This document shows, one piece after another, positions 48,150-60,268 of a stretch of DNA of 64,000 nt. Made by a program: the position numbers and the translations under genes. Source of the stretch: Selenomonadaceae bacterium (GTDB lineage: Bacteria; Bacillota; Negativicutes; Selenomonadales; Selenomonadaceae). Each line of letters starts with the position of its first letter. Position 1 is the stretch's first letter. The stretch spans positions 1 through 64,000 of the forward strand of contig JAFUXN010000083.1 in assembly GCA_017477125.1 (NCBI GenBank). Direction: 5' to 3'. The notes under the pieces are model-generated. The model ran no database searches. It worked only from the letters and a program-made list of their open reading frames with translations, and was not told the origin of the DNA.

Positions 48150-49046
48150 TTGACGCTGATGAAAATCGACGAGCTGATCGAGAGGTACCCGACGCTCGAA
48201 TGTTGCCGACGCTCGATCGAATATGCGCTCGAGCTGATGATCGGATCGATCAGAACGGGAGGGAAGTTGATAACATGCGGCAACGGAGGCAGTGCTGCCG
48301 ACGCTCAACACATCGTGGGCGAGCTGATGAAGGGCTTTATCCTGCCGCGACCGATCGAGCGGTTTGCTCCGCTGATCTCCGCGCGGATCGATCAAAAATT
48401 TCCGTCGCATGCAGAATATCTCAAGAGTAATTTGCAAGGAACGATCCCTGCGATCTCGTTGGTGGGAGAGACTGCGTTGATGACGGCGTATTCGAACGAC
48501 AAGGCGCCCGATCTGATCTTCGCTCAACAGTTATTGGGTTTGGGGCGAGCGGGCGATGTGTTGATAGCGATCTCGACGTCGGGCAACTCGGCGAATGTGA
48601 TCTACGCGCTTGAGGTGGCGGCGGCGATGAACATCAAGACGATCGGGCTGACGGGACGGACGGGCGGCAAGATGGCGTCGATAGTCGACGTATCGATCAA
48701 TGCGCCGGCTGATCACGCTCACACGATCCAAGAATTTCATCTGCCGATCTATCATGCGCTGTGCCTTGCGCTCGAAGCGGAGTTCTTCTCTGTGGTGACA
48801 CGGAAAAAATATGCATACAGCTATAACGTGTGCGATCAGCCTGACGAAGACATATTCCACAGGCAGTGCGCGGCGCTGGTGAAGCACATTCCCGGACTTG
48901 AGCCCGAGCGCCTCTTACAGGACGTTGATGGTACTCTTATCCAAATCTATCAACACAAGCGTGGAGAGATCAAAGTTGTTAATGATCGCGATACTTGGGC
49001 ATTGTACATCGACAGCGATTTCGACATTGATCCGTACTTCGAATGA
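48150..49046 (+). CDS. GmhA-like SIS protein with an extra C-terminal domain
   Basis: Residues 1-210 form a SIS domain of the phosphoheptose isomerase type: LITCGNGGSAADAQHIVGEL, FPSHAEYL, ALMTAYSNDK, LIAISTSGNSANVIYALE, GLTGRTGGKMA and HTIQEFHLPIYHALC. GmhA makes D-glycero-D-manno-heptose 7-phosphate for LPS. Unlike usual GmhA (about 195 aa), it continues with an 85-residue domain (YNVCDQPDEDIFHRQCAALV, DVDGTLIQIYQHKRGE, YIDSDFDIDPYFE) that is repeated as a separate gene next door. The start is uncertain: TTG 48150 or ATG 48159, neither with a good RBS; a GGGGG stands further upstream near a possible ATT start. Confidence 0.8.
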   Translation: MTLMKIDELIERYPTLECCRRSIEYALELMIGSIRTGGKLITCGNGGSAADAQHIVGELMKGFILPRPIERFAPLISARIDQKFPSHAEYLKSNLQGTIPAISLVGETALMTAYSNDKAPDLIFAQQLLGLGRAGDVLIAISTSGNSANVIYALEVAAAMNIKTIGLTGRTGGKMASIVDVSINAPADHAHTIQEFHLPIYHALCLALEAEFFSVVTRKKYAYSYNVCDQPDEDIFHRQCAALVKHIPGLEPERLLQDVDGTLIQIYQHKRGEIKVVNDRDTWALYIDSDFDIDPYFE

Positions 49047-49068
49047 CGCTTGAACAGGAATGCTCCCA

Positions 49069-49314
49069 ATGAAAGAGTATGCTTATAACTATTCGATTTG
49101 CAACCAACCCGACGAGGACATATTCCACAGGCAGTGCGCGGCGCTGGTAAAACACATTCCCGGACTTGAGCCCGAGCGCCTGTTGCAGGACGTTGATGGT
49201 ACTCTTATCCAAATCTACCATCACAGGCGCGGTGACTTGTTGGTTTGGAATGACATGCAGGTGGGCGGAGTTTATATTGAGAGCGACTTCGACATCGAGC
49301 CATACTTTGAGTGA
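49069..49314 (+). CDS. Standalone copy of the SIS-protein C-terminal domain
   Basis: An 81-aa protein almost identical over its centre to the C-terminal domain of the preceding SIS protein (CNQPDEDIFHRQCAALVKHI and DVDGTLIQIY are shared), while the ends differ (WNDMQVGGVYIESDFDIEPYFE). The DNA of the shared stretch is also nearly identical over about 110 bp, so duplication or conversion was recent. The family is unknown to me. ATG 49069 is chosen because homology begins there; its RBS is weak, so it may be translated by coupling. Confidence 0.6.
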   Translation: MKEYAYNYSICNQPDEDIFHRQCAALVKHIPGLEPERLLQDVDGTLIQIYHHRRGDLLVWNDMQVGGVYIESDFDIEPYFE

Positions 49315-51312: not shown

Positions 51313-51522
51313 ATGAAAGCAGAGTTTACGATCAAGAGCGAGCGCTGCAAGGGCTGCGGCATCTGCGTGGCGTTTTGTCCCAAGCAGATACTCGCGCTCG
51401 ACCCGCTCGGCAAAATTTACGTCGCCGACCAAGAGAAGTGCATAGGTTGCGGGCAATGTGAGCTGCGTTGTCCCGACTATGCGATCTTCGTCGACAGAGT
51501 GAAGGAGGCGGGCGCGAAATGA
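51313..51522 (+). CDS. korD: 2-oxoacid:ferredoxin oxidoreductase, ferredoxin subunit
   Basis: A 69-aa protein with two [4Fe-4S] motifs, CKGCGICVAFCP (cysteines 12, 15, 18, 22) and CIGCGQCELRCP. It passes electrons between the TPP-dependent subunits and ferredoxin. Its ATGA end overlaps the start of korA, so the two are coupled. The order D-A-B-C is normal for these operons, but here a foreign gene separates B and C. Confidence 0.9.
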   Translation: MKAEFTIKSERCKGCGICVAFCPKQILALDPLGKIYVADQEKCIGCGQCELRCPDYAIFVDRVKEAGAK

Positions 51523-52667
51523 GTGAAGCGCGATTGATGCAAGGCAATGAAGCGGTCGCCGAGGGAGCATTGATGGCGGGCGTGAGATTTTTTGGCGGAT
51601 ACCCGATCACGCCGTCGACGGAGATAGCCGAGGGCATGGCGAAGATGTTGCCGAAAGTTGGCGGCACGTTTATCCAAATGGAAGACGAGATCGCGAGCAT
51701 GGGCGTAGTATTGGGAGCGTCGCTGGCGGGGCGCAAGGTGTTGACGGCGTCGTCGGGACCGGGCATCAGTTTGAAGCAGGAGCTGATCGGATATGCGGCG
51801 GCGGCTGAAATCCCGGTGGTGATCGTAAATGTTCAGCGCGTTGGACCTTCGACGGGGCAACCGACGGCGCCGAGCCAAGGCGATGTGATGCAAGCACGAT
51901 GGGGGACGCATGGAGATCACCCGATCATCGCATTGAGCCCGTGGAGCGTGCGAGAGGCATTCGAGTTGGCGGTGCGGAGCGTGAACCTGGCGGAGCAATT
52001 CCGCACGCCGGTGATCCTGTTGATGGACGAGATCGTTGGGCACTTGCGTGAGAAGGTTGAGCTGCCCGACGCGGTTGAGATATATCCTCGTCGCAAGCCG
52101 AAGAAGACGCGGGCGGAAGGTTATGAGCCGTATGCGCCCGATGATGATCTGGTGCCGAACATAGCGGATTTCGGCGACGGGTATCATATTCATGTGACGG
52201 GCTTGATTCATGACGAGACGGGATTCCCTGTCGGCAGCCCGAAGGTGACGGAGGACGCGATCAATCGATTGCACCAAAAGATCGAGCGGGCGGCAGATGA
52301 GATCGTCAAGGTCGAAGAGCTGTTCATGGACGATGCGGAATATGCGGTGGTGTCGTTCGGCGGGACGGCGCGGACGGTCTATGAGGCGGTACGAGAAGCT
52401 CGGGAGCGCGGCATCAAAGTCGGCATGCTGAGGCTGATAACGATCTGGCCTTTCGCCGATAAAGCGATTTATGATTTGGCGTCGAGGGTCAAAGGGATAT
52501 TGATGGTCGAGCTCAACTACGGGCAGTTGGTGAATGAAGTGCGTCGGGCGGCGAATGGTCAATGTCGAGTCGATTTGTGCGCGAAGTACAACATGCAGAT
52601 ATTCGAGCCGGAGGAGATCGGCGAAGCGATCGATCGAATGGTAGCGGAGGTGAGCGGCAATGATTGA
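51519..52667 (+). CDS. korA: 2-oxoacid:ferredoxin oxidoreductase, alpha subunit
   Basis: The 382-aa subunit begins RLMQGNEAVAEGALMAGVRF, continues FFGGYPITPSTEIAEGM and SSGPGISLKQELIGYAA, and holds the C-terminal transketolase-like domain. The enzyme interconverts 2-oxoacids with acyl-CoA, CO2 and reduced ferredoxin; 2-oxoglutarate is the most likely substrate, though branched-chain oxoacids are possible. ATG 51519 overlaps the korD stop. It overlaps korB by 8 bp. Confidence 0.92.
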   Translation: MSEARLMQGNEAVAEGALMAGVRFFGGYPITPSTEIAEGMAKMLPKVGGTFIQMEDEIASMGVVLGASLAGRKVLTASSGPGISLKQELIGYAAAAEIPVVIVNVQRVGPSTGQPTAPSQGDVMQARWGTHGDHPIIALSPWSVREAFELAVRSVNLAEQFRTPVILLMDEIVGHLREKVELPDAVEIYPRRKPKKTRAEGYEPYAPDDDLVPNIADFGDGYHIHVTGLIHDETGFPVGSPKVTEDAINRLHQKIERAADEIVKVEELFMDDAEYAVVSFGGTARTVYEAVREARERGIKVGMLRLITIWPFADKAIYDLASRVKGILMVELNYGQLVNEVRRAANGQCRVDLCAKYNMQIFEPEEIGEAIDRMVAEVSGND

Positions 52668-53484
52668 GCGCAGCTACGAAAAATATTTCCGTCGGAACCG
52701 CCTGCCGCACTTATGGTGTCCGGGCTGCGGCAACGGCATAGCGATGAAGGCGATCGTGCAAGCGATCGAGGGCAAGGACGGTTGGACGCAGGACAATACG
52801 ATCATCGTGTCGGGGATCGGGTGTTCGTCTCGAGCGTCGGGCTACATGGATTTCGACACTCTGCACACCGCGCATGGTCGAGCGATCCCGTTTGCGACGG
52901 GTATCAAGTTGGCGCGTCCCGAGCTCAACGTGGTGGTGATCACGGGCGACGGAGACTGCACGGCGATCGGTGGCGGTCACTTCATTCATGGTTGTCGACG
53001 GAACATCGATCTGACGGTGGTGCTGTTCAACAATAACATCTACGGAATGACGGGCGGTCAAGCGTCGCCGATGACTCCGATAGGGAAGCGGGCGACGACG
53101 GCTCCGTACGGTTCTGTTGATCGAGTGTTTGACGCATGCAATCTGGCGCAAGCGGCGGGCGCGACGTACGTGGCGAGGTCGACGGCGTTCCACGTTCAGC
53201 ACCTGGTGAAGATGATTCGCGAGGGGCTCGACAACAAGGGATTCTCGTTTATAGAGGCGCTGGTTCAATGTCCGACGGCGTACGGTCGGCGCAACAAGTT
53301 GGGCGATCCTGCAGAGATGATGGCGTGGATGAGGGACAACGCGATGATGAAGGCGGCGTGGGACAAGCTGCCGGAGGAGAAGCGTCCCGAAGGGAAGTTC
53401 CCGATCGGATTGTTCTACCAATCGGAGGCGATCGACTACGATACCGCATATGATCATGTGATCGACATTGCGGGCGGGCGTTGA
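52660..53484 (+). CDS. korB: 2-oxoacid:ferredoxin oxidoreductase, beta (TPP) subunit
   Basis: The 274-aa TPP-binding subunit with LWCPGCGNGIAMKAI, GIGCSSRASGYMDFDTLHT, the GDGDCTAIGG...NN thiamine motif and NNNIYGMTGGQASP. It forms the active site with the alpha subunit. The gene overlaps korA by 8 bp. Normally the gamma subunit gene would follow at once; instead a gap of 23 bp leads into an FkbM methyltransferase gene. Confidence 0.93.
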   Translation: MIERSYEKYFRRNRLPHLWCPGCGNGIAMKAIVQAIEGKDGWTQDNTIIVSGIGCSSRASGYMDFDTLHTAHGRAIPFATGIKLARPELNVVVITGDGDCTAIGGGHFIHGCRRNIDLTVVLFNNNIYGMTGGQASPMTPIGKRATTAPYGSVDRVFDACNLAQAAGATYVARSTAFHVQHLVKMIREGLDNKGFSFIEALVQCPTAYGRRNKLGDPAEMMAWMRDNAMMKAAWDKLPEEKRPEGKFPIGLFYQSEAIDYDTAYDHVIDIAGGR

Positions 53485-53507
53485 AAAAAATCCTGGGAGG
53501 AGATTCC

Positions 53508-54672
53508 ATGAGAGATTTTGTCAAATTTGTTTCGGATATGCACAGCAATCGATACGCCGTCACGATCAATAAGATCCTCAATGAGGGGGGGGGGTTGCGC
53601 ATTCTTCTCTCTCAACGTGACACCGTACCTGCTGTCGATTGTTCAGTCTCTGCGAGCTCAAAGGTTTAACATCAAATGCATAGTGACGATCTTTCCGTCG
53701 ACCATCGAAAATACTTCCGGCATCGACATTGTTTCGATCAAAGACTTTGCATCGATTAAGCCCGAGCCCGAATACGTGCTTGTCTTCGACGGTTGGGGCA
53801 GCGATTTTAAATTGGCGTCGCATTTTATCAAGAGTAGCGCACCCATCATTTCGCTCGCCGATCAATCAAAAGTCCATTGGATGGCGACGCATTATGATTA
53901 CTACATGAGCCATATGCCCGACATCTACGAGGTCTACAATTCGTTACGTGATGTGGAAAGTCGGCGAGTGTTCTGCGGTTTCTTGATGGCGCGAATTTCC
54001 GGCAAGCTTGGCGACGCTGTTTATGCCGATACTCCTCAATATATTTGTGAGGGATTCATTCCGCGTCCCGGAAGCATCGTTATTGACGGCGGTGCTTGCG
54101 ACGGAGCTACTGCGCCTCGTTTTATCGAACGCGGTTGCAAAGTCATCGGCTTTGAGATGGACAAGAAAAATTTTGAGCTCGCCGCCGCTCTGGGTAAGCA
54201 ACTGAATTTCACCGTCGAAAATCTTGGGCTCGGCTCGTCAAATCGCGAAATAAGTTACACTCACGTCGAAGGAAATATTGGCGCGAGCCATCTCAACGCT
54301 CAAGGCAATGATATTGCCAAGATCGTCACGCTCGATTCGTACGCCGCGGAGCATAATCTGCCGAGCATCGACTTTATAAAACTCGATGTTGAGGGTGCTG
54401 AGCTCGATGTTCTTAAAGGTGCGGCACAATCGATCAAGAAGTGGAAACCCAAGCTGGCGCTTAGTGCCTACCATAAGATTGAAGACCCATGGGAGCTGTT
54501 GAGATTTGTAAGATCGTTGCGTCCGGACTACGAGTTTGCGTTCAGGCACTACGCTTACACTCGGGCAGATGTTCCATTCCTCATCAACGAAAACACTGAA
54601 AGGCTTTACGCCTCGCTCGGTGTGGAGTGCAAGATTCCCTCGCTGCAGGAAGGTGTCCTGTTCTGTCGTTGA
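53508..54672 (+). CDS. Phase-variable FkbM-family methyltransferase, out of frame at a G10 tract
   Basis: ATG 53508 has GGGAGGAG upstream and codes MRDFVKFVSDMHSNRYAVTI..NEGGG, then the frame fails after the G tract at 53585-53594 and stops at 53669. With nine G instead of ten, GAG GGG GGG GGT TGC leads into CAFFSLNVTPYLLSIVQS and a frame that stays open to 54672, a 387-aa protein. Its C-terminal half is an FkbM-type SAM methyltransferase (IVIDGGACDGATAPRFIERG, VIGFEMDKKN, DFIKLDVEGAELDVL). The N-terminal half is not recognised. FkbM enzymes often O-methylate surface sugars. The codon use is more AT-rich than the kor genes. The sequenced state is OFF; length change of the tract would switch it ON. 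Confidence 0.85.
53585..53594 (+). repeat. Poly-G tract (10 G), slippage-prone
   Basis: Ten consecutive G near codon 26 of the FkbM gene. Nine (or six, or twelve) would restore the long frame. Poly-G tracts of this length near the 5' end of surface-glycan methyltransferases and glycosyltransferases are the classical slipped-strand phase-variation switch in Campylobacter. Confidence 0.9.
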
Positions 54673-54709: not shown

Positions 54710-54737
54710 TTGACAATCGATCGCCGTTGAGTATAAT
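54710..54737 (+). promoter_or_regulatory. Promoter for korC
   Basis: Perfect TTGACA (54710-54715), a 16-bp spacer and perfect TATAAT (54732-54737), 78 bp before korC. It lets the gamma subunit be made despite the inserted gene. Confidence 0.8.
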
Positions 54738-54814: not shown

Positions 54815-55339
54815 ATGAGAAGACAGATGAGACTTTCAGGATCAGGCGGACAAGGAGTCATCACGGCAGCGATCATCTTGGCGGAAGCAGCCGTATCGGA
54901 AGGGAAGCAAGCGGTGCAGTCTCAGTCCTACGGACCGGAGGCGCGCGGCGGAGCATCGAAGTCTGAAGTCATCATCGACGATGGAACGATCTTTCACCCG
55001 CATGTCAAACACCCCGATTGCGTGTTGGCAATGACGCAGAAGGCGGCGGACAAATACTTCGCGGATATGGATCCGAACGGAGTGCTGGTGTTGGATTCGG
55101 ACTTGGTGCCGAGTGTGCCGGACGTGAAGAACGTGGTGCAGATTCCGATCACCAAGCTCGCGGTTGAGAAGGTGGGCAAGGCTCTGTTCGCAAACATCGT
55201 GGCATTGGGAGCGCTGGTAAAATTGACGAAGATCGTTGAGCTCGATACGATCAAACGTTCGGTCGCCAATCGCGTTCCGCCCTCGACGGTTGAGAAGAAT
55301 ATGTACGCACTGCAGCTCGGTTATGATGCGGTCGCGTGA
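54815..55339 (+). CDS. korC: 2-oxoacid:ferredoxin oxidoreductase, gamma subunit
   Basis: The 174-aa subunit begins MRRQMRLSGSGGQGVITAAI, the gamma-subunit signature, and continues QSYGPEARGGASKSEVIIDD. It completes the KorABCD complex. AGGAGG precedes the ATG. It is separated from korB by 1.33 kb carrying the FkbM gene but has its own strong promoter and a good terminator. Confidence 0.92.
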   Translation: MRRQMRLSGSGGQGVITAAIILAEAAVSEGKQAVQSQSYGPEARGGASKSEVIIDDGTIFHPHVKHPDCVLAMTQKAADKYFADMDPNGVLVLDSDLVPSVPDVKNVVQIPITKLAVEKVGKALFANIVALGALVKLTKIVELDTIKRSVANRVPPSTVEKNMYALQLGYDAVA

Positions 55340-59252: not shown

Positions 59253-60268
59253 TCAATAGGCGACTTCATGTTTGACGCGGTCATGCTCCTCCGACCGCTT
59301 GGAGTTGTTCCATGAATTGATATCTCCGGTGAGATACACCTGTCAGTGGACTGTTTCTTGCTCCGTAGAGCGAGCGTGTTCAGTCTCTGCATTCAAGTAG
59401 ATCACATCAAAATCCAATATCCTCGAGCGATGTTTTCTAAGTCGAGCTCGCATTGATTCAGCCGCCCGACCGCAATGATCCGCAAGGTATCTCGCCGCCG
59501 CCTTCGTCGACTCAAACACCATCTCCACGCCGCCGCCAACGAGCTTCACTGCCTTCATTCGTTCGCGACGAGCCGCCTCGAGATTCTTCGAGCCGCGAGC
59601 AGATATGTTTGTGTGGTCGCGATTCTTCATCTGCTCGCTCTTGGTCACGTATCGAAGGTTCCGATAGTCGTTGTTGTGAGAATTTCTGTCGCGATGATCA
59701 ACCTCATATCCGTCCGGCTTATCGCCAAGCCAGCATTCGGCAACAACGTGAGCAATCGAAACGCGTTTGACCTTGCCTTTGAGGTTCACCCAAGTAAAGT
59801 AGTAGCCGACGCTCGAATGATGCATGTCCAAGACGATGCGGCTTTGCTTTTTAGACTTCACATTTCTGAAGATGGTACCGTTACTGTTGACCTCATAGAG
59901 GAATTGCAATGATTTGATCTTCCTGAACTCAAGATTTGAGCCTTCACTCATCCCTTGATACCCTCCCGATTATTATTTTACTTCTGCGCCGCGTCGGCGG
60001 CACCGGTCGAGAGAACTCCGTCAAAACGGATTTACGCTACTTTGCGGGCATCTCTACCCGTTATGCGTCTGATGCGTTCAAACTTCGGTCCGCGCAACTC
60101 GTAATTCAGATCGATCTTGCCGTCCGCGCACCCGACCACCTCAATCTTCTTGAGCGGCTCCGTCGTCCGCTCCCGTACGTAATCGACATAGTGTTGAGTC
60201 TCTTGCTCCGTCACGTCCTCGAGCCCGATCACCACTACCTCGACGCCGTCTACCACCCTGCCATTCAT
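59253..60268 (-). CDS. NrdD-like small protein gene, split by a group I intron
   Basis: Exon 1 (60268-60056) codes MNGRVVDGVEVVVIGLED to FERIRRITG; exon 2 (59336-59253) codes YLTGDINSWNNSKRSEEHDRVKHEVAY and a stop. Joined, they give 98 aa with the FERIRRITGYL...NxxKRxEEHDRVKH pattern of the small proteins annotated as anaerobic ribonucleoside-triphosphate reductase (NrdD C-terminal-like). Unspliced, exon 1 runs seven codons into the intron and stops. The third of three tandem ATGs (60268) is best spaced from AAGGGAG. It lies 57 bp downstream of prfA. Its biochemical role is unclear. The match of both halves, in register, to one family is the main support. Confidence 0.8.
59337..60055 (-). mobile_element. 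Group I intron with HNH endonuclease gene
   Basis: A 719-bp insert. The 5' exon ends CGGGT and pairs with GCCCG (60049-60045), giving P1 with the required U-G pair at the splice site. The adjoining GAGAT (60054-60050) pairs with ATCTC of exon 2 (59335-59331), giving P10. TCCG/CGGA (60030-60017) forms P2. GTTC (60016-60013) pairs with GAAC for P3. The R-like GCAGAGACTGAACAC (59390-59376) and S-like AAGAAACAGTCC contain P7, GACTG (59385-59381) with CAGTC (59353-59349). GCTC-TACG-GAGC (59371-59360) is P8. The last intron base is G. Elements were read by eye and not folded by computer. Confidence 0.85.
59343..59951 (-). CDS. HNH homing endonuclease of the group I intron
   Basis: The 202-aa protein has an N-terminal NUMOD4-like part (FLYEVNSNGTIFRNVKSKKQ), an HNH nuclease centre (VDHRDRNSHNNDYRNLRYVT, then SEQMKNR), and a C-terminal NUMOD-type DNA-binding helix region (MVFESTKAAARYLADHCG). 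Such enzymes cut intron-less alleles and cause intron homing. The 3' end of the gene overlaps the catalytic core of the intron (P7-P8), and its stop lies six bases before the 3' splice site. The start at 59951 is preceded by GGGAGGGTATCAAGGG. It is the only obvious mobility gene in the window. Confidence 0.88.
   Translation of the reverse strand: MSEGSNLEFRKIKSLQFLYEVNSNGTIFRNVKSKKQSRIVLDMHHSSVGYYFTWVNLKGKVKRVSIAHVVAECWLGDKPDGYEVDHRDRNSHNNDYRNLRYVTKSEQMKNRDHTNISARGSKNLEAARRERMKAVKLVGGGVEMVFESTKAAARYLADHCGRAAESMRARLRKHRSRILDFDVIYLNAETEHARSTEQETVH

Follow-up and report, generated by a model that had tools for sequence, protein, structure and literature searches.

Slipped-strand phase variation is a textbook mechanism, familiar from Campylobacter, Neisseria and Helicobacter. 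In the phase-variable loci of Campylobacter, poly-G/C tracts lie inside coding genes and are mostly 9-10 long (PMC6321876), and a survey of 99 genomes found poly-G/C tracts to be generally under-represented, with no Selenomonas or Veillonella named in its text (PMC2831843). Within the open-access literature we found no paper pairing 'phase variation' with Selenomonadaceae and none joining 'phase variation', 'homopolymeric' and Selenomonas, an absence that is not proof of novelty, and the text of the genome paper on Quinella makes no mention of phase variation or methyltransferases (PMC9585023). The mechanism is known; the lineage and scale described below are apparently unreported in the literature searched.

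We analyzed a 64,000-nucleotide stretch (the window) on contig 43 of a 2.9 Mb metagenome-assembled genome (MAG) of 154 contigs, a short-read-type sequence whose homopolymer counts may be off. A first-pass annotation of this window had pointed to a tract of ten G that puts an FkbM methyltransferase gene out of frame. Taken together, the sequence evidence makes it very probable that this tract acts as a contingency (phase-variation) switch, one of about 44 loci that would together randomise genes for surface glycans, flagellin-type modification and restriction-modification.

The ten G are confirmed; they follow codon 25 of 387, in the 5' part of the coding sequence, and are within the length range (at least about 8) looked for in a switch tract (Table 1). 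The ATG at 53508, with the Shine-Dalgarno-like CCTGGGAGGAGATTCC upstream, opens a frame that ends after 53 residues at a stop at 53667-53669, while the post-tract frame, one base off this start frame, stays open for 358 codons up to the TGA at 54670-54672. From ATG to stop the gene measures 1162 nt, i.e., 387 codons plus one nucleotide, and the earlier claim that nine G would restore a 387-aa methyltransferase holds. The post-tract frame scores 66.6 bits against the PF05050 profile (cut-off 22.7) and 73.2 bits against TIGR01444 (cut-off 37.7), bearing out the assignment of the out-of-frame product to the FkbM methyltransferases, and has PDB 2py6 as a remote solved relative. A SAM-binding-type motif (DGGACDG) and a VEGAE motif are intact in this frame, and the N-terminal ~190 residues lie outside the coverage of the domain models. 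SAM-dependent O-methyltransfer is predicted from the family match and motifs, and the family and gene company point to a surface sugar as the most likely substrate of the enzyme when ON.

Table 1. Coordinates of the FkbM gene, its tract and the neighboring kor genes in the window
Feature	Position	Strand	Evidence or remark
korD, ferredoxin subunit	51313..51522	+	4Fe-4S Pfam hits; upstream neighbor
korA, 2-oxoacid:acceptor oxidoreductase alpha subunit	51516..52667	+	POR_N 5.8e-66; NF006412 1.7e-163
korB, beta subunit	52660..53484	+	NF007207 1.6e-94, below cut-off; adjoins korC in most relatives
Shine-Dalgarno-like sequence GGGAGGAGATTC ahead of ATG 53508	53494..53505	+	seen in sequence
FkbM start frame	53508..53669	+	ATG, 25 codons, tract, out-of-frame read to stop; 53-aa OFF product; N-terminus homologous to intact FkbM relatives
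G10 homopolymer tract, proposed switch	53585..53594	+	aligns with 'KIP' just ahead of relatives' first beta strand
Remainder of FkbM methyltransferase	53596..54672	+	358 codons + stop; out of register with start frame; PF05050 3.9e-18, TIGR01444 2.9e-20, PDB 2py6 1.4e-16
Consensus sigma-70 promoter TTGACA-16-TATAAT, between FkbM and korC	54710..54737	+	12/12 match; predicted
korC, gamma subunit	54815..55339	+	POR PF01558 1.2e-38; TIGR02175 above cut-off; downstream neighbor

The downstream frame is also open 5' of the tract, as far back as a TTG at 53518, and on purely mechanical grounds the gene might pass as intact. When the 26 ATG-frame residues were compared with the N-termini of 25 intact FkbM relatives, the mean best ungapped score was 46.0, against 9.7 +/- 1.9 (highest 20.2) for shuffled controls. 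The TTG reading of the downstream frame reached 6.7, compared with 8.4 +/- 1.6 for its shuffles, and this start, which would leave the gene ON, was rejected because its N-terminus scores like shuffled sequence. Since the ATG-frame N-terminus is homologous to intact relatives and the TTG reading is not, we take the frame break to be genuine and to sit within a real gene, with matches to intact relatives on either side. The alignment sets KIPCGFF of the relatives against GGGCAFF here, the tract standing in place of KIP, and a change in length by one unit shifts the downstream coding sequence into or out of frame, with real coding sequence on both sides. Codon-position differences relative to a paralogue on contig 41 (0.40, 0.30 and 0.58) reflect old coding constraint only, the divergence between the two copies being too great to test for selection.

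The gene order is korD-korA-korB-FkbM-korC, as previously described, with the kor subunits themselves in the sequence D-A-B-C and the FkbM ATG 23 bp past the end of korB. The label 'inside the kor operon' is correct by position, but the functional importance of this setting is probably slight. Across relatives the korB-korC gap is mostly 6-9 bp, and FkbM stands between the two genes only here among 27 genomes; because the insert is absent from relatives and korC comes with a consensus promoter of its own, the kor setting is probably incidental for the switch. Other FkbM copies adjoin suf genes, parB-DUF4446, gatB, an MreB gene, a ClpX-type AAA gene, recJ, a NifS-type aminotransferase gene and M23 peptidases, and since these neighbors are unrelated, the subfamily is scattered close to housekeeping genes instead of being bound to kor. 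The korB-korC junction is itself a recurrent place of insertion (loci L109, L116, L119 and L127), holding a deoC-like gene in one genome (G034, L127) and inserts of 180-280 bp in others, two of which have a duplicated korC start. Elsewhere in the window, we observed a tandem partial duplication at 48150-49314, involving a SIS-domain protein whose C-terminal part (HRQCAALVKHIPGLEPERLLQDVDGTLIQIY...) recurs in the next small ORF (49060-49314), as well as an HNH-type homing endonuclease-like ORF on the minus strand (59343-59951) adjoining a copper-ATPase-like gene.

A long G run in one 64-kb window is unremarkable by shuffling, as dinucleotide shuffles of the window average 0.63 matches to GGGGGGGG (G8) and the observed 3 were reached by 7 of 100; we accordingly rejected the lone G10 as sufficient proof of a switch. 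Across the whole genome, we counted 44 separate G/C runs of at least 9 versus only 4-5 runs of 7-8, the latter being what is left room for when the 44 tracts account for 174 of 180 seven-mers. Within 323 kb sampled around tracts, runs of four, five and six numbered 748, 98 and 3, with none of seven or eight, followed by 15-16 of 9 (one 9-run being counted twice in overlapping loci), 20 of 10, 8 of 11 and one of 15; such sampling enriches the counts at 9 and above and does not cause the gap at 6-8. Extrapolation of the decay from n4 to n5 gives 0.3 expected runs of at least 9. Independent draws from the base composition (iid) give about 34 such runs, which by itself speaks against phase variation, but they also give about 426 runs of 7-8, and for this reason the informative feature is the gap at 6-8, not the bare tract count.

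Codon scoring, in which a few assignments may be wrong, places 15 of the 44 tracts in the ON state and 29 in the OFF state, fitting the one-third expected of random frames, and in 12 of the 44 the coding strand shows C. Both mutS and mutL were found in the genome, so that mismatch-repair loss was rejected as the cause of the many tracts and slippage would receive no boost from it, a point against phase variation. Two-colour sequencing yields poly-G at read ends. Contigs 39, 47 and 153 open with a poly-G/C run (up to 15) or no more than 2 bases short of one, either because mixed lengths broke the assembly or through a sequencing artefact; this enrichment (3 contig ends versus 0.07 expected) was set aside as evidence for mixed tract lengths, given the two-colour alternative. 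Internal tracts with coding sequence on both flanks are not read-end artefacts.

Nearly all genes that carry tracts were searched against Pfam, each by its longer piece. This returned five FkbM methyltransferases, the window's included, along with glycosyltransferases (GT2, GT8, GT10 and GT92), LicD twice, WbqC, a fucosyltransferase-like protein, an NAD epimerase and a formyl transferase. Further matches were to AMP-binding (amino acid adenylation), SDR, KAS III, ATP-grasp, transketolase N and RTX repeat domains, an MmeI-like restriction-modification protein, an HNH protein and a HATPase_c-type ATPase, and several tract genes had no Pfam match. Nine poly-G/C tracts form a single cluster within 22 kb of contig 14 (L051, L052), in genes for AMP-binding, KAS III, SDR, formyltransferase, N-acetyltransferase-like and FkbM proteins, an arrangement suggestive of a locus for sugar/acyl modification of the flagellin type. 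The AMP-binding, KAS III, SDR, formyltransferase and FkbM classes also figure in the core phasomes of Campylobacter (PMC6321876). Seven flagellin hits were obtained genome-wide, and contigs 65, 92 and 122 each hold one of them together with at least one tract gene. A separate arrangement was observed on contig 55 (19998-20008, L065), where a C11 tract lies at codon 912 of the MmeI-like protein, after all five MmeI domains and ahead of 313 codons in another frame, making a switch of specificity or of a fused part possible. A search of IMG/VR viral contigs returned no relative of FkbM, and a search of viral contigs for other tract lengths of the HNH gene returned only remote relatives.

Close records come from ruminants and are MAGs that bear the label Selenomonadaceae or Veillonellaceae. 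Runs of G9 or longer occur in 41 of the 41 genus genomes examined (4 to 370 overlapping 9-mers), compared with 0-20 overlapping 9-mers in 23 class outgroups; the largest set belongs to genome G003, whose 370 overlapping G9 matches are four times those of the MAG studied here (G000). At one aligned site, about 308-328 codons ahead of the stop, 12 FkbM copies of the genus, including the contig 41 paralogue, carry a poly-C tract whose length is 7, 8, 9, 10, 12, 13 or 14. Tract length differs in this way between homologues from related species, with 10 copies OFF and 2 ON and the N- and C-terminal parts intact or recognisable in each. The window's G10 site is without a homologous tract in those 12 copies, and a second close paralogue just beyond the window (contig 43:65334-66386) carries G9 at a third site. 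As these tracts lie at different sites, the FkbM family appears to have gained switches more than once, the window's tract at a site of its own; the FkbM tree is too weakly resolved for counting such gains. More tentatively, and with somewhat less than even confidence, we suggest that this rumen-type Selenomonadaceae genus combines a poly-G/C phasome at least as large as that of Campylobacter with a dispersed FkbM subfamily whose copies have landed next to housekeeping genes such as kor, suf, par, gat, mre and recJ, its tracts gained independently at different sites and in either base, so as to form scattered, individually switched surface-modification cassettes.

The first-pass reading of slipped-strand phase variation is supported by the 44 tracts with their gap at 7-8, by the tracts in all 41 genus genomes, by the C7-C14 site in 12 FkbM relatives and by Campylobacter-like gene classes. 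Under such a mechanism, DNA polymerase slippage during replication would add or remove a G in the tract (an interrupted version of which would take a form such as GGGGAGGGG), and one tract length in three would join the Shine-Dalgarno-led start frame to the downstream frame to give the full FkbM methyltransferase. The sequenced state, with 10 G, would be OFF and yield the short peptide. Each cell lineage would either add a single methyl group to a surface sugar or leave it off, and some 44 switches could generate very many surface forms in one population. From these patterns we infer slippage in living cells, its reversibility and the substrate. In this gut-type bacterium, remote from the pathogens known for such switches, random on-off switching probably affects many surface-modifying genes.

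That the tract is instead fixed in frame in the population, with the enzyme always made and the count of ten a consensus error, is very improbable. The sequence is a MAG in many contigs, homopolymers are the commonest place for a miscount and in three contigs an end falls no more than 2 bases from a tract, but random mistakes would not produce 44 runs at lengths 9-11 and leave lengths 7-8 almost empty, nor do they account for a C7-C14 site common to 12 separately assembled relatives, and in-frame tracts amounting to one-third indicate varying frames, not a fixed ON state. Still harder to credit is a recent fixed frameshift in a dying pseudogene. The gene is OFF as sequenced, as are 10 of the 12 poly-C relatives, but the OFF copies all retain both halves open and homologous and the catalytic motifs are intact; a 10-G tract is inherently unstable, and a fixed state is unlikely for this reason.

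Programmed slippage, in which RNA polymerase or the ribosome slips at G10 and a fraction of full enzyme comes from the same DNA, is unlikely, if less so than the two preceding explanations. Long homopolymers do permit transcriptional or ribosomal slippage, and slippage has been mentioned for the poly-A of Buchnera (PMC2831843), but it explains neither the differing lengths and the two frame states at one site among relatives nor why the family has tracts at two different sites, made of different bases; a slippage leak could occur on top of phase variation. We consider it distinctly unlikely that the tract serves to tune the 2-oxoacid oxidoreductase through polarity, the OFF state lowering korC by way of a long untranslated message. 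FkbM does lie between korB and korC, and about 1 kb goes untranslated when it is OFF; against this, korC has its own predicted promoter (recorded as 73 bp past the start of the FkbM stop zone), the insert is missing in relatives and other family copies stand beside unrelated genes.

If switching by tract length is indeed what these loci do, many 'pseudogenes' or frameshifts in such MAGs would be switch states, and dozens of switches would exist in an uncultured ruminant-gut genus of another phylum, in much the same classes of genes as in Campylobacter. This would suggest that the trait tracks host-gut life (phage and immune pressure, crowding) and not pathogenicity. Compared with the FkbM family (PF05050, TIGR01444; PDB 2py6), the gene is alike in its domain match over cut-offs and its intact motifs, and differs in the ~190-residue N-terminal part outside the models and in its proposed switching by a tract. 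Quinella and other rumen Selenomonadaceae (PMC9585023) are possible relatives and share a probable ruminant origin and many surface-glycan and flagellar genes. The Campylobacter parallel drawn in the first-pass annotation stands for mechanism and function class, but not for lineage (PMC6321876). Both phasomes consist of poly-G/C tracts, mostly 9-10, within coding genes, and the classes common to both are SAM-dependent methyltransferase, formyl transferase domain, 3-oxoacyl-ACP synthase, ATP-grasp, short-chain dehydrogenase and sugar transferase (PMC6321876). Unlike Campylobacter, the present genome belongs to another phylum (a Selenomonadaceae-type Bacillota with a GC content of ~54% versus ~30%) and has mutS/mutL, 12 of its 44 tracts are runs of C on the coding strand versus 5% in Campylobacter, and it holds 44 tracts of at least 9 where C. 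jejuni has a median of 20 of at least 7 (PMC6321876).
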